From an uncultured Opitutia bacterium (GTDB taxonomy: Bacteria > Verrucomicrobiota > Verrucomicrobiia > Opitutales > Coraliomargaritaceae): a stretch of DNA of 64,000 nucleotides. Position 1 is the stretch's first letter; each line of letters begins with the position of its first letter. The position numbers and the translations under genes are program-made. Location: assembly GCA_937136395.1 (NCBI GenBank), contig CAKZOI010000071.1, positions 1 through 64,000 on the forward strand, given 5' to 3'. The notes below the pieces were generated by a model. The model had not been told where the DNA came from. It saw only the letters and a program-made list of their open reading frames with translations, and made no database searches. Of the stretch, positions 2,886 to 56,831 are shown in pieces.

Positions 2886-4282
2886 AAGGGTTGATTGGGG
2901 GTGAATTCGTTTTCGACCATTTGTTTGAGATAAAGTTTCGCGGCGTCGATATCGGTGAAAGCGCCGTCGAGTTGTGCTTCGTAGCAGCGGTCGAGGATTT
3001 TACCGAAGTGTTTGCCTGGCTTCACGTTTAACTCGACGAGATGGCGACCGAGTAGGAGTGGTTTAGGAGCGTTATCTTGTATGGCGAGTTCGGCGGCTTT
3101 GTTCAAGAGCCATTCGCCCTCGGGAAAGCCGTTGGGGACGATGGGCGGGCGACCGTGTGTGTCTGCGTGGGCAACGCGCACGAGTCGATCCATTCGTTTG
3201 ACGCGGGCGGCGAGACGGCGGACTGCTGAGTCGCCGGCACCGTCACGGTAGAGTGCGAGTGGGCGCATGTGTTGCTCGACCAGTGGCAGCACTTCTTCAA
3301 AGATCTTCTTTTGGCGTGTGATGCGTTCGAGGAATGTTTGGGCGATGGGCACGCCTTCGATGTCGTGGCGTGGGCTACGGATGCGACCGTTCTCGTCTTT
3401 GAAACTGGTTGTGGGTTTACCCATGTCATGGCAGAGCACAGCAAGGCCGACGATGAGGTCTTCCCATTCGTCTCCAATGCGTTCGTTGGCGTAAGCGTCG
3501 AGGCAATGGCAGGTATGTGTCCACACATCACCTTCCGGGTGCCATTCAGGTTCTTGTTCACAGCCGACGAGCGCTTCGATCTCGGGGAAATACGGTAGCC
3601 AGTCGCAGGCTTGTAGGAAGCGCAGGCCTTTGCCGATTTGTTGTCCTTTGAGAATGAGCTTTTTCCATTCTTCCCAGAGGCGCTCCATCGGTAAATGCTC
3701 GGGTGTGAGTGCACGGCAGAGCTCGATGGTTTCAGGCGCAGCTTTCAAGTTGAATCGCGCCATAAATTGCATGCCGCGAAGCACACGTAAGGGGTCTTCG
3801 CTAAAGGCTGCGGAAACGTGACGGAGTGTGCGGGTTTCCAGATCGGCAACACCGTTGTAGGGGTCCAGAAGTTCGCTAGTCAGCGGATCGTGGCTAATCG
3901 CGTTGATCGTAAAGTCGCGCCGGGCGGCGGCGTCTTGGGGTGACATGTTGGGATCACCTTCGACAACAAAATCGGTATGCTTGGGCCCAGTTTTGGATTC
4001 GCGGCGGGGCAGGGCGATGTCGATTTCGAGTCCCTTGACGATGAAGACACCAAACGCTCGGCCCACAGTATCGAGCCGATAGTGCTCCGTGAGTGTTGCT
4101 TCCACCGTATCGGCATCGAGACCATACACTTCGATGTCCACATCTTTGGAAGGAATGCCGAGCAGCCCATCACGCACGCAACCACCGACCAGCAAAGCAC
4201 GACCGCCAGCCGCTTGGATACGGCTTGCGATCTCGATACAGGCAGCGCGTTGCTTGGAGGAGAGGTTTTCGAGAATAGTCAT
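2882..4282 (-). CDS. cca: CCA tRNA nucleotidyltransferase / poly(A) polymerase family, HD domain
   Basis: A 466-residue class II nucleotidyltransferase that adds or repairs the 3' CCA of tRNA. Motifs in order: the polymerase-beta-like head [13 protein letters not shown] with [10 protein letters not shown] (metal-binding DxD), RRDFTINAI near residue 121, the RNA-binding segment [16 protein letters not shown] near 160-175, and an HD phosphohydrolase domain ([12 protein letters not shown]) near 290. The HD domain is typical of the bacterial CCA enzyme with phosphatase activity. Start ATG 4282 gives the usual N-terminus. A purine-rich inverted repeat (4286-4360) sits directly upstream, between this gene and nadK. 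Distinguishing CCA-adding from A-adding enzymes by eye is not possible. Confidence 0.93.
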
Positions 4283-4285
4283 TTT

Positions 4286-4360
4286 GTCTTACTCTTAATC
4301 TTACTCTTAATCTTATTCCATAGCTGGGATTAAGATTATGATTAGGAGTAAGATTAAGAC
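4286..4360. repeat. purine/pyrimidine-rich inverted repeat between nadK and cca
   Basis: One arm is built of TTACTC and TTAATC hexamers (4286-4318); the opposite arm (4329-4360) carries the complement (AAGATTATGATTAGG, AGTAAGATTAAGAC). About 19-20 bases pair (CTTAATCTTACTC against GAGTAAGATTAAG). It lies in the 88-bp gap between two minus-strand genes, 4 bp from the cca start. It resembles in composition the arms that bound the four-helix-bundle gene at 37697-38115. It could also simply be a transcript hairpin. Confidence 0.6.
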
Positions 4361-29972: not shown

Positions 29973-30046
29973 GATTGGCTGCGCTAAGTAGTGAGAATTG
30001 TAGAGTTAGAGCGCGAATTTCAGTTTTCTGCATTTCTAGCTTTCAG

Positions 30047-30508
30047 CTAATTCACATCGCCTAGGTAACGGCTTTTCGGCTGAAAACCATCTTCGGTGAA
30101 ATACTGTTTGATGACTCCTGGTAGAAAGCGCGTCTCCTGGATTTCTGATAGTGGGATCCACGATACGCCTATTTGCTTTTTGTCATGCTCAGTGCCAGGG
30201 CCGATACCCTCTGGATTGGGGAGCTGGCAACGAAAGACGTTTTCCACTTGATGAAAGGAGCGGTGCGCGTTGCGGAACTCATGATTTCGACCAATGTATT
30301 CACGCACATAGAGGAGTTCGCCAACGTCTACTTCGGTGCCGATTTCTTCCAAACACTCGCGCCGAAGGCCTTCGCGTAAGGTTTCACCATGATTTTGCCC
30401 CCCACCTGGCAGAATGTAAAATATGCCAGTATTGTCGCGCATTTTGATCGCGAGTAATTTCTTCTCATGGATAATTAAAGCTCTGGCTGCTGTTCGGATT
30501 GGTCGCAT
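30047..30508 (-). CDS. Nudix hydrolase
   Basis: A Nudix protein of 153 residues from ATG 30508 (the in-frame ATG 63 bp upstream would add a hydrophobic segment that the family lacks). The Nudix box is complete: [23 protein letters not shown], with the metal-binding REx2EE. It would hydrolyse a nucleoside diphosphate linked to another group (X). The substrate cannot be told by eye. The C-terminal part has [24 protein letters not shown], typical of ADP-ribose or dNTP-type Nudix proteins. It stands alone on the minus strand, divergent from the small gene at 30634. Confidence 0.9.
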
Positions 30509-36186: not shown

Positions 36187-37674
36187 TTACGGAAGCTTGG
36201 TGGTTCCCATCAGGAACTTATCGCATTCGCGAGCGGCAGCGCGGCCTTCGTTGATCGCCCACACGATGAGGGACTGGCCGCGGCGCATATCACCGGCAGC
36301 GAAGACACCTTCGACGCTAGTCTTGAACTTGCCGTATTCAGCTTGAACGTTGGAGCGTGCATCGAGGTCAAGACCAAGCTCTTCTGCGATGGTTGCTTCA
36401 GGTCCGAGGAAGCCCATTGCGAGCAAAACCAGGTCGGCTTTGAGCACGCGCTCTGTGCCTTCTACTTTCTTCGGGATGAAACGACCGTTGTCACTGACCC
36501 ATTCGATGTTGTGGACGTGCACGCCCTTGACGTTGCCATCGTCGTCTCCGGAGAAACGGCTGGAAGTGATCAAGTATTGGCGTGGATCTTCACCTTGGAC
36601 GGCTTCGGCTTCTTCTTGACCGTAGTCCATCTTGTAAGTTTTTGGCCACTCTGGCCATGGGTTGTTGGCTGCGCGCTCGGTTGGAGGCTTCGGCATGATC
36701 TCAAGTTGTGTGACGCTTGCGCAACCGTGACGTAGGGAAGTGCCGACACAGTCTGTGCCTGTATCACCACCACCGATGATGACGACATTCTTACCCTTAG
36801 CGAGTTCGCTGAACTGTTCGGACTTGCCGTCCTTAATGTCCCAAAGCTCCTTGGTATTGGGTCCGAGAAACTCCATTGCGAAGCGAATGTTGTTAAGCTC
36901 GCGCCCTTCGATTGGAAGGTCGCGGGGCTTGGTTGCACCACAGCAGAGCACGACAGAGTCGAAGTCTTCCATGAGTTGCTTGGAGGAAAGGTCTTTACCG
37001 ATTTCGACGCCACATTTGACGACGACGCCTTCAGCTTCTATGAGTGCGACGCGGCGTGTCACGACATCCTTCTCAAGTTTCATGTTTGGAATGCCATACA
37101 TTAGAAGACCACCTGGGCGGTCTGCGCGCTCGAAGAGTGTGACTTCGTGGCCCGCTTTGTTGAGTTGATCCGCAGCAGCAAGACCGGCAGGCCCAGAGCC
37201 AACAACAGCGACCTTCTTACCAGTGCGCTCTTCTGGAGGTTGTGGTTTGACCCAACCTTCATTCCATGCCTTGTCGATAATAGAGCACTCGATGTTCTTA
37301 ATGGTAACCGGTGGCTCAATCACACCTAGCACACAAGAGCCTTCACAAGGAGCTGGGCAAACGCGGCCGGTGAACTCAGGGAAGTTATTTGTCTTGGAGA
37401 GGCGGAGGTAGGCGTCGTGCCATTTGTCACGGTAGACCAAATCATTAAACTCAGGAATGAGGTTATTAATTGGGCAACCACTCGCCATGTTACTGAGTGT
37501 GATGCCAGTGTGGCAGTAAGGTGTGCCGCAATCCATGCAGCGAGAACCCTGTGTTTGCACTTTTTCCTGGTCGAAATCCTCGTGAATTTCATTCCAGTCC
37601 TTGAGGCGCTCAAGCGGTGGACGATTTGCAATCGTCTTACGCTCAAACTCTAAAAATCCAGTTGCTTTACCCAT
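36187..37674 (-). CDS. gltD: glutamate synthase, small (beta) subunit
   Basis: A 495-residue NADPH-dependent FAD and iron-sulfur protein that supplies electrons to GltB. N-terminal cysteine clusters ([23 protein letters not shown]) bind [4Fe-4S] clusters; [20 protein letters not shown] (FAD) and [21 protein letters not shown] (NADPH) are Rossmann motifs; the C-terminus has [22 protein letters not shown], which completes FAD binding. Together with gltB it converts 2-oxoglutarate plus glutamine into two glutamates. The gene is separated from gltB by the inverted-repeat element with a four-helix-bundle gene. Confidence 0.97.
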
Positions 37675-37680
37675 AGTTTT

Positions 37681-38115
37681 TAAGGAGTTAGAAGTTAGGG
37701 GGTAGAAGTTAGGAGTGGCTACGGGGCGAGAACCTTGTTGGTGTAGCTTCTTAACATCTTTCCGATTTCGTTGAGTTGATTAGTAAGTGATAGAGTGTCT
37801 GCGTAACCAAGGTCTTTGGCTAGGCGTAGATAGTAACGGCACTCGTTCAGCGAGCCTTGGGCGATGTTGTAGAAACGTGCTTTGTCGGCTGCTGAACGCT
37901 TTCCATATCCTTCTGCGATGTTAGCAGGGATGGACACTGCGGCACGTCGGAACTGAGAGGTCAGTCCGAACTTTTCGCTGCCTGGAAAGGAGAGTGTCAT
38001 TTGATAAATGTCTAATACGTATTGATGTTCTTTTTGCCAAACAAGAAGGTGTTCGAAGCTATGAGTTTCAGATTCAGTTTCCATTCTATCTTCTAACTCC
38101 TAATTTCTACCTCCT
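37681..38115. repeat. inverted-repeat-bounded insert in the gltB-gltD operon
   Basis: The left arm 37697-37716 (AGGGGGTAGAAGTTAGGAGT) and the right arm 38096-38115 (the inverted copy, 18 of 20 matching) flank the four-helix-bundle gene. A further purine-rich TAAGGAGTTAGAAGTTAG precedes the left arm. The whole insert occupies 37681-38115, almost exactly the gap between gltD's start (37674) and gltB's stop (38124). The arms are rich in GTTAG/GTAGAAG units. An inserted or shuttling element with a single gene fits the picture; the borders and any target duplication cannot be proved from one copy. Confidence 0.6.
37719..38084 (-). CDS. four-helix-bundle (S23/IVP-like) protein
   Basis: A 121-residue soluble four-helix-bundle protein of the 23S-rRNA-intervening-sequence family (TIGR02436-like). 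Marks: [47 protein letters not shown] with the conserved SIPANIAEG motif, and [20 protein letters not shown]. Family members lie in rRNA intervening sequences or as free-standing copies of unknown function; a related fold (Avd) works in diversity-generating retroelements. Here it sits between gltB and gltD inside inverted repeats and reads on the same strand, so it would be carried on the operon transcript. No reverse transcriptase or template repeat is nearby. Confidence 0.85.
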
Positions 38116-38123
38116 GCAGGTCA

Positions 38124-42770
<4,647 letters not shown>

Positions 42771-43441: not shown

Positions 43442-43689
43442 ATCCGCTAAGTGTTGTGATTTTTTGCAGATGTCAACCTCTGGCAGTAAGTTCATTTATT
43501 TTTGAACATCGCTTCTTTTTTACTGAAAAGCACTCGTTTATTGAGGCTGCACACTGCTTGATGATCCTATGTGTGGTGATGAATGATCACTTCATTGGAG
43601 GGTAGTGCGCTGTCATTGCCTTTCCTAAGGGGTGGGTAGCGATGTGACCGCTCAAATGTTTGCGGAAAGGACAGGGCTGTTTTCCGCCA

Positions 43690-43835
43690 GTTCTCAAAGG
43701 TAGCGTCTCCCGCCAGTTATTAAAAGGTAGCGTCGCGCGTCGCTGCCAGCCATTACCGAGCCAAAGTCCCCGTAATCGGCAAAACAGATCTGACGTGTGG
43801 CGCGCAGGGACGCGCGCCGCTACCTCTAATTTGCA
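43690..43835. repeat. BIME-like pair of REP sequences, GTAGC(G)GCGCG family, copy 1
   Basis: Left heads GGTAGCGTCTCCCGCC (43699) and GGTAGCGTCGCGCGTCGCTG (about 43727) are followed by an inner spacer with CCATTACCGAGCCAAAGT and CCCGTAATCGGCAAAACA, and end in an inverted arm TGGCGCGCAGGGACGCGCGCC GCTACC (43797-43823). The arms pair over about 20 bases. The left part looks duplicated. Copy 2 (44054-44183) shares the same spacer with a few changes, which proves a repeated unit. Reading frames over these elements are not genes. Confidence 0.8.
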
Positions 43836-43960
43836 GGTGACGGTAGGCATTTCTCTGGGTCGTCTGAGTCATCACTAAAAAAAGAATTAAATTTTGAACG
43901 CCAGGCGCACCCGTGCGTCTATCTCTATATAATTTAGTTTATAGTTTTGTTGTTTGTTAA

Positions 43961-43995
43961 GACGCCGTCCTCAAAAGGGGCGGCGTCCTTTTTTG
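43961..43995 (+). terminator. intrinsic terminator with no obvious upstream gene, possible small RNA 3' end
   Basis: Stem GACGCCGTCC / GGGGCGGCGTC (one G-T pair) with loop TCAAAA and six T on the plus strand. No plus-strand gene ends here; the nearest gene upstream is on the other strand. A TATAAT-like box at 43928-43933 lies 28 bp after a TTGAAC at 43894, too far for a normal promoter. A small RNA between about 43900 and 43995 is possible but weakly supported. Confidence 0.6.
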
Positions 43996-44053
43996 TTCAG
44001 CTTCATCTACTGCTTAAAGCATGGATACAATGGCGTTTCCCTCCAGTTATGAA

Positions 44054-44183
44054 AGGTAGCGGCGCGCGTGCCAGTTATGAAACGTAGCGGCGCGCGTCCC
44101 TGCGCGCCATTACCGAGCCAAAGTTCCCGTAATCGGCAAAACAAATCCGACGTGTGGCGCACAGGGACGCGCGCCGCTACCTC
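44054..44183. repeat. BIME-like pair of REP sequences, GTAGC(G)GCGCG family, copy 2
   Basis: GGTAGCGGCGCGCGTGCC (44055) and CGTAGCGGCGCGCGTCCCTG (44083) form head arms; the spacer CCATTACCGAGCCAAAGTTC / CCGTAATCGGCAAAACA matches copy 1; the closing arm TGGCGCACAGGGACGCGCGC CGCTACC ends at 44183. The arm hairpin GGCGCGC / GCGCGCC is strong. The left head is again doubled (CCAGTTATGAAAGGTAGC / CCAGTTATGAAACGTAGC), as in copy 1. Confidence 0.82.
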
Positions 44184-56184: not shown

Positions 56185-56250
56185 GGTAGTGCACGATATC
56201 CTTATCGCGCCGGACGTCGAAATTGACGGTTCGTTAGGGATAACGAACCC
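56185..56250. repeat. REP pair downstream of the RAYT remnant
   Basis: GGTAGTGCACGATATCCTTA TCGCGCC (56185-56211) and GGTTCGTTAGGGATAACGAA CCC (56228-56250) are two stem-forming palindromes separated by 16 bases. The same pair recurs at 56766-56831 in slightly different sequence and the second palindrome also at 56718-56740. Confidence 0.85.
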
Positions 56251-56701
56251 GACCTGTTGCGAATGGTGTAAGACCAATTTTCTGCAACCGCGCAGAGTCC
56301 AGCACGAACAGGATTGTTTAACAGGTGTGCTTCCTTTTCGATGAGTTCATTCCGATTGCGAATTCGATGCTCAAAGAAATTCTTCTGCCAGTCGATTGAT
56401 TGGGTCTTCGCCAGGTATCGCTTCCAACCGCCTATGATTGTTCGGATGGATTTATCACGCGCGTTGAGAGTTAACAGCGTATGTATGTGGTCTGGCATGA
56501 GCACCATTAGGCGTATGTGCTAAAGACTCGTTCCGTATAGTTGTCTGAGCTGTCTTTGATCGCTTGGAAAACACTATCCTTCGCTAATTGATTTATGCCG
56601 CGTTTATTGCAGTTGATCGTAATGAAATAAGTGTCTCCGTCTGGAACCTAATTTGGAACTTCGTGTGGCAGTTTTTTTCGTTTTGGAAGGTTTTCCGGCA
56701 T
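56202..56701 (-). pseudogene. REP-associated tyrosine transposase (RAYT), broken
   Basis: The frame starts MPENLPKRKKLPHEVPN at 56701, meets an in-frame TAG where a Trp codon is expected, continues VPDGDTYFITINCNKRGINQ and ends near 56520. A one-base shift then leads into the frame MVLMPDHIHTLL (the HUH-like HIH motif), RTIIGGWKRYLAK and LLNNPVRAGL. In the family a catalytic Tyr precedes the NPV block; here the aligned position reads His (KEAHLLNNPV). RAYTs cut and join REP sequences as single strands. The gene has at least one stop, one frameshift and a likely lost nucleophile. REP pairs lie at both sides. Confidence 0.85.
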
Positions 56702-56717
56702 TACTATATTGGCTGAC

Positions 56718-56831
56718 GGTTCGTTTGGGATAACGAACCCTAGCTAATTGAGTTATTTATCATTTGGGTAGGGCACGATATCCTTATCGTGCCGCCGTTG
56801 AAGTGGGCGGTTCGTTAGGGATTACGAACCC
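56718..56831. repeat. REP palindromes upstream of the RAYT remnant
   Basis: Three palindromes: GGTTCGTTTGGGATAACGAA CCC at 56718-56740, GGGTAGGGCACGATATCCTT ATCGTGCC at 56766-56793 and GGTTCGTTAGGGATTACGAA CCC at 56809-56831. The GTAG head and the paired layout match the copy on the other side of the RAYT. The last one abuts the hemL stop at 56835. Confidence 0.85.

Follow-up and report, generated by a model that had tools for sequence, protein, structure and literature searches.

The 449-base gap between gltB and gltD in the genome of an uncultured Opitutia bacterium holds one gene, which encodes an S23/IVP protein of 121 residues and is set between two inverted arrays of tandem units of about 7 nt. 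We analyzed this locus within a window of 64,000 nucleotides, which lies on contig C71 of the genome (G000). The insert is probably the free-standing counterpart of the intervening sequences (IVSs) of 23S rRNA, that is, a one-gene, probably selfish cassette in which the arms are part of the element. At the level of sequence, our analysis demonstrates the anatomy of this cassette, its ~7-nt (sometimes 8-nt) unit, the matched arms, the co-variation of arms and protein, gene-less derivatives of these arms in the same genome, a counterpart in rRNA, and a patchy and recurrent occupation of the gap.

An S23 gene between inverted heptamer arrays

In the host operon, gltB (glutamate synthase large subunit; 38124-42770; NF008730, 1659.9 bits) is the upstream gene and gltD (small subunit; 36187-37674; TIGR01317, 782.8 bits) the downstream one. 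The insert fills the gap between them, as the first-pass annotation had stated, and its sole gene is the four-helix-bundle S23/23S_rRNA_IVP gene at 37719-38084. Since gltB, the IVP gene and gltD all lie on the minus strand, the S23 open reading frame is in sense with the host transcript, as it is in IVSs; the flanks are gltB and gltD and not a 23S rRNA gene.

That annotation had also placed the gene within a 20-base inverted repeat, and we found that 37697-37716 and 38096-38115 are indeed complementary at 18 of 20 positions. What it overlooked is that the arms are inverted tandem ~7-nt units, TTAGGAG/TTAGAAG. Because they are built of such units the arms pair in more than one register, and a better register joins 37683-37712 to 38086-38115 with 25 of 30 positions paired. 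The downstream arm (gltD side; 37683-37716, minus strand; sense 3′ arm CTCCTAACTTCTACCCCCTAACTTCTAACTCCT) was delimited by direct repeat, Tandem Repeats Finder (TRF) and pairing. It contains a 14-nt direct repeat equal to two 7-mers, has a TRF period of 7, and is the pyrimidine-rich complement that ends 8 nt ahead of the gltD start codon. The upstream arm (gltB side; 38086-38115, minus strand; sense 5′ arm AGGAGGTAGAAATTAGGAGTTAGAAGATAG), recognized as the inverse complement of the other arm and by its lag-7 match, is purine-rich and contains a Shine-Dalgarno-like AGGAGG/TTAGGAG before the IVP start. As in IVSs, the complementary ends are able to form a stem, and the predicted RNA fold, with a z of −3.0, is closed by the arms. 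Immediately outside the upstream arm, at 38116-38135, a 12-base palindrome (GTCACTAGTGAC) lies over the end of gltB.

Pairing as high as 25/30 was reached by none of 5000 shuffled arm pairs and by one of 2740 same-spacing segment pairs sampled along the window, that one possibly being the cassette itself. Chance or an ordinary repeat as the source of the arms was ruled out by these shuffles together with the ordinary-gene flank controls described below. A target duplication had been proposed at 37675-37681 (AGTTTTT) and 38115-38124; reading the two stretches, we found no direct repeat common to them.

The encoded protein is under purifying selection

The S23/IVP assignment made from the letters alone was upheld by profile matches to PF05635 (23S_rRNA_IVP; E 1e-37, 129 bits against a curated cut-off of 33.8) and TIGR02436 (E 2.6e-37, 127.4 bits against 24). 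Avd models matched the window protein at 32-33 bits (bAvd), below their curated cut-offs; for the Avd equivalog the match was 33 bits against a cut-off of 80. The two solved relatives have five chains each, and 2gsc is a solved S23, Xanthomonas XCC0516. S23 is a toroidal homopentamer (PMC4990558).

Compared with the intact orthologues in G002 and G031, the glt IVP gave dN/dS values of 0.14-0.16, from which we conclude that the gene is under purifying selection; for gltD the value was about 0.05. The earlier view that gltBD tolerates the insert is borne out by gltD, which is intact and strongly constrained. Purifying selection at glt counts to some extent against a selfish cassette, as it also fits a host function.

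Heptamer arms accompany S23 genes in 18 phyla

We surveyed 174 IVP loci, of which 91 belong to the same phylum; the other 83, chosen as nearest to one query alignment, come from named genomes and plasmids across many phyla and include two ANME-group archaea. The survey spans 18 phyla plus one unassigned locus. Period-7 arrays were present in 197 of 348 IVP flanks (57%) and lag 8 in 37, along with multiples of both; the lag spectrum had one peak, and the controls gave 4 (shuffled) and 4 (distant). Among ordinary G000 genes, 37 of 1156 flanks passed (3%), with both flanks passing in 3 of 578 genes. For IVP genes both flanks passed in 64 of 174, and 154 of 174 had some array of lag 7 or 8. The length of the arrays peaked at 4-5 units. 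That such repeats are common to all gene flanks was thus rejected by the 3% of ordinary genes and by the flanks of PDDEXK_3 genes, where lag 9 occurs and lag 7 does not.

The arms are also matched to one another. When each upstream flank was aligned to its own downstream flank in reverse complement, the score was 31.7 versus 16.0 for mismatched flanks in the same-phylum set and 37.3 versus 15.9 in the named set, and in each set about 71% of loci exceeded the 95th percentile of mismatched pairs. The remaining loci, about 29%, may reflect decay or a wrongly chosen start codon, as start codons were picked mechanically. Where neighbors could be called, the upstream one was co-directional with the IVP gene in 39 of 44 cases and the downstream one in 43 of 47; an exception is Nostoc plasmid pNe_5, where both annotated neighbors are antisense to the IVP. 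In plasmids of Anabaena sp. 90 and Pseudanabaena galeata (L324, L325), type I-D CRISPR operons have an S23 gene placed between cas6 and cas4. A tblastn search of a phage collection with one IVP query gave no match.

An ordinary small operon gene that happens to sit beside a chance inverted repeat would, like the glt IVP, be under purifying selection. This explanation is refuted by the 0/5000 shuffles and by the cross-phylum statistics, and we regard its probability as close to nil. The build of the S23 cassette around a gene family in 18 phyla instead suggests an overlooked, widespread small mobile element.

Arm sequence follows the protein

The sequence of the unit varies between copies, yet it is common to similar proteins of different phyla. 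We compared arms and proteins in locus pairs from different phyla without common context, and arm similarity rose with protein identity, from 15.3 (30-40%) to 19.2 (55-60%) and 22.7 (at least 60%). Among pairs with at least 58% identity (n = 85) the mean arm similarity was 22.2; exchanging arms within the phylum gave 16.4, and none of 5000 permutations reached the observed mean. The overall arm-protein correlation was modest (Mantel r 0.15, 0/2000), becoming clear only at identities above ~55-60%. If whole elements spread horizontally, with no active recognition by the protein, this could explain part of the co-variation.

A parallel comes from PDDEXK_3 (GxxExxY) genes of the same genomes, which lie in inverted repeats with a peak lag of 9 (12 of 59) and none of lag 7 (0 of 59). 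Unit length therefore tracks the protein family, 7 nt for IVP and ~9 nt for PDDEXK_3. Across the phylum, the inverted repeats around PDDEXK_3 genes at L212-L241 are made of ~9-nt units (CCACAGAGG ACACAGAGG ...).

These results bear on the idea that the repeats belong to the site, with heptamer arrays arising from replication slippage and hairpin-directed copying and IVP genes preferring to land there. Many arrays without a gene are consistent with it, as are the heptamer microsatellites without an S23 gene that the accessible text of PMC4692102 describes in Nostoc and Xanthomonas. Against it stand a unit length that tracks the protein family, arms that track the protein across phyla, and an rRNA IVS that bears arms too. 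Site-borne repeats are already disfavored on these grounds, and we consider them improbable.

A counterpart within a ribosomal RNA gene

One of the 174 loci sits within an LSU rRNA gene of the Azospirillum lipoferum plasmid AZO_p2. Its IVP is bordered by TCAGAGG-ACGGATG-ACAGAGG-ACGGAGG-ACAGAAAG and the inverse complement. The Coxiella IVS has terminal inverted repeats, is cleaved by RNase III, and carries tandem GACAGAT heptamers ahead of its S23 ORF (PMC4990558). From the Azospirillum arms and the Coxiella anatomy, we take the cassettes in operons and the rRNA IVSs that bear an S23 gene to be a single kind of element residing in different transcripts. The tie of the cassette to rRNA IVSs is clear, and it bears on the origin of rRNA intervening sequences, which is described as unexplained (PMC4990558).

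Gene-less copies in the host genome

G000 contains five PF05635 genes. By reading, we found all five flanked by inverted short tandem repeats, with a different unit each time: TTAGAAG, ACTCGAA, ATACGGG, AACGTCC and the 8-mer GCTGAAAC. A search of 824 kb of the genome returned 38 intergenic arrays without an IVP gene; for 18 of them, comparison with the arms of the five resident IVPs gave a score of at least 30. Sets of five IVPs drawn from other genomes matched a mean of 1.1 of these arrays, with a highest count of 10 in 2000 draws. Because gene-less arrays match the arms of resident IVPs, the arms belong with the resident genes, much as MITEs do with their transposon. Dispersed copies that share ends, as expected of insertion sequences and MITEs, are thus found in G000, and gene-less hairpins with AACGTCC arms recur in G000, G001 and G002. 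The first-pass annotation had held that arms scattered throughout the genome with no link to the gene would speak against a cassette; the same arms are indeed found apart from the gene in other places, yet the two are statistically linked across the 18 phyla.

Several further repeats were seen. Between atpG and atpD (L172-L189), G000 has a TTAGAAG-type hairpin; in G001 and G002 the arm before atpD is the only one present. In the window, a short (TTTCAGC)n array at 30018-30048 adjoins the end of an ORF and by eye resembles the GCTGAAAC arms, whose IVP locus is on C10 (L008). At 4282-4359 the window has a hairpin made of 6-nt units (TCTTAATCTTACTCTTAATC ... GATTAAGATTATGATTAGG). Arrays of a similar kind are found on C73, C95 and C22 of G000; they match none of the five IVP arms and may be the arms of a different cassette family. 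The stretch 43684-44180 carries G+C-rich repeats (GTAGCGGCGCGCGTCCCTGCGCGCCA), both direct and inverted, which are REP-like palindromes, and similar motifs (GGTAGCGGCGCGGGTCCCTCCGCGCC) occur elsewhere in the genome (L002; C95 near 41387). Finally, the palindrome GGTTCGTT(A/T)GGGAT(A/T)ACGAACC is present in three copies at 56228-56830.

The element could also be mobilized in trans by a known enzyme, either a reverse transcriptase, S23 being a relative of Avd, or a Y1/RAYT-type transposase acting on the hairpins. The weak bAvd similarity and the presence of Y1_Tnp in 22 of 23 genomes tested are in keeping with this. Against it, G127, G151, G171, G058, G083, G086, G153, G168 and G066 have 6-18 IVP matches each and no RVT_1 match, and G002 has neither an RVT_1 nor a Y1 match yet carries the glt cassette. 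We hold mobilization by such an enzyme to be improbable, and a reverse transcriptase as general mobilizer in particular is not supported, given the several IVP-rich genomes without an RVT_1 match.

The gltB-gltD gap in relatives

Comparison of the gap in relatives, as the first-pass annotation had proposed, revealed a patchy insert and not one shared by all. The glt cassette is present in G000, G001, G002, G021, G027 and G031. In other members of the family, gltB and gltD are separated by 18-68 bases or by hairpins of 109-167 bases built of another heptamer, with no gene. On the gltBD tree the cassette must have changed state five times, and well-supported branches force at least three of these changes; G018 was scored as lacking the IVP in this tree only since its contig ends at gltD, and so represents missing data. 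No clean pair of empty and filled sites was seen at glt, and relatives without the cassette often have hairpins of other heptamers in the gap. No transposition event was seen among the relatives compared.

Across the phylum, the gap holds three IVP types (G000; G083/G133/G058; G104) that are 27-37% identical between types. Each is closer to IVPs at other loci, a recurrent occupation of the gltB-gltD gap. In the leuB-alaS gap, G000 and G001 have an IVP cassette, whose unit in G000 is AACGTCC, and G002 has a PDDEXK_3/GxxExxY gene in inverted CGCAGAT repeats (L205). Between G031 and G001, synonymous divergence of the cassette (0.67) is lower than that of gltD (1.77) and gltB (1.49), and the order of distances is reversed relative to G002 and G021. 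These values, which come from few sites and are near saturation, give a hint of transfer. The earlier suggestion of a mobile or programmed element carrying one gene holds as far as a patchy one-gene cassette is concerned, while movement, a target duplication and programmed behavior were not borne out.

Two relatives have a broken IVP ORF at glt, shifted near its 5′ end in G001 and interrupted by an in-frame stop in G021. Together with the patchy presence even in close relatives, this weighs against a domesticated intercistronic control element, immobile today, in which binding of S23 to the arms on its own mRNA adjusts how the operon is processed or translated (gltB/gltD balance). Such an element would account for the sense orientation in operons, the Shine-Dalgarno-like motif in the 5′ arm, the placement of the 3′ arm right ahead of the following start codon, the stable fold (z −3.0) and the purifying selection (0.14-0.16). 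It would not account for cassettes in unrelated operons of different genomes, for gene-less copies dispersed in the genome, or for unrelated IVPs recurring in one gap. We therefore judge local control to be a serious but unlikely explanation.

A candidate mechanism for the selfish cassette

For the selfish cassette we envisage a 5′ heptamer array, an S23 gene and a 3′ inverse-complement heptamer array, in sense within an operon, that would be co-transcribed and expressed from the host promoter. The arms would form the element's termini and move together with the gene. In the transcript they would pair into a stem, presumably a substrate of RNase III as in rRNA IVSs, and opening of this stem by RNase III would explain why the operon tolerates the insert. 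Avd forms a pentameric barrel, and the TRAP ring reads spaced triplets. By analogy with TRAP, the toroidal S23 pentamer may recognize the tandem units, one unit per subunit, in which case the fixed spacing of the units would be set by the S23 subunit repeat. Through this putative binding, S23 might protect, process or mobilize the element that encodes it and do likewise in trans for the gene-less hairpins.

Relation to known systems

S23/IVP genes are widespread in bacteria and have no known function; for the heptamer repeats reported from Nostoc, Xanthomonas and Beggiatoaceae genomes, no cause has been given. One testable idea, that the protein reads the repeat, would join S23 genes, the origin of rRNA IVSs and heptamer repeats, with the specific prediction that S23 tells cognate from non-cognate 7-mers. 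Tentatively, as a proposal that may well prove too broad, we suggest a general class of prokaryotic one-gene mobile cassettes with short tandem-array ends, in which the protein family sets the unit length, at 7 nt for S23 with its pentamer and at about 9 nt for PDDEXK_3, and each protein reads the unit proper to it. On this view, rRNA IVSs, free-standing S23 genes and many of the heptamer repeats in bacterial genomes would be variants of one and the same thing. This wider class is the novel part; in the open-access literature we found no description that links S23 genes outside rRNA to heptamer arms, though one may exist elsewhere.

The closest known systems are the rRNA IVSs with an S23p ORF (Coxiella, Leptospira and Brucella, and here Azospirillum AZO_p2), which share with the window copy a sense ORF, terminal inverted repeats and heptamers in the ends (PMC4990558); they lie in rRNA, whereas the window copy lies between protein genes. 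Intergenic tandem 7-nt units are known from cyanobacterial STRRs, as GGGGA(T/C)T in Nostoc, and as GGGAATC in Xanthomonas, there often as inverted pairs (PMC4692102), and TAACTGA heptamer repeats occur in Beggiatoaceae (PMC4679880). These too are tandem units between genes; the accessible portions of the two papers give no link to an S23 gene, whereas here arms and gene form one unit. With MITEs and insertion sequences the cassette shares inverted ends and gene-less copies beside a gene-bearing one, but it encodes no transposase or nuclease, its arms are tandem arrays with copy-specific sequence, and no target duplication accompanies it. The Avd (bAvd) of diversity-generating retroelements (DGRs) is a distant homologue, at the 32-33 bits given above, and has an adjacent reverse transcriptase, unlike the window copy on C71, since RVT_1 is matched just once in G000, on contig C77. 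Lastly, PDDEXK_3/GxxExxY genes resemble the cassette as single genes between inverted short tandem repeats, and differ from it in their nuclease-fold protein and in a unit of ~9 nt instead of 7.
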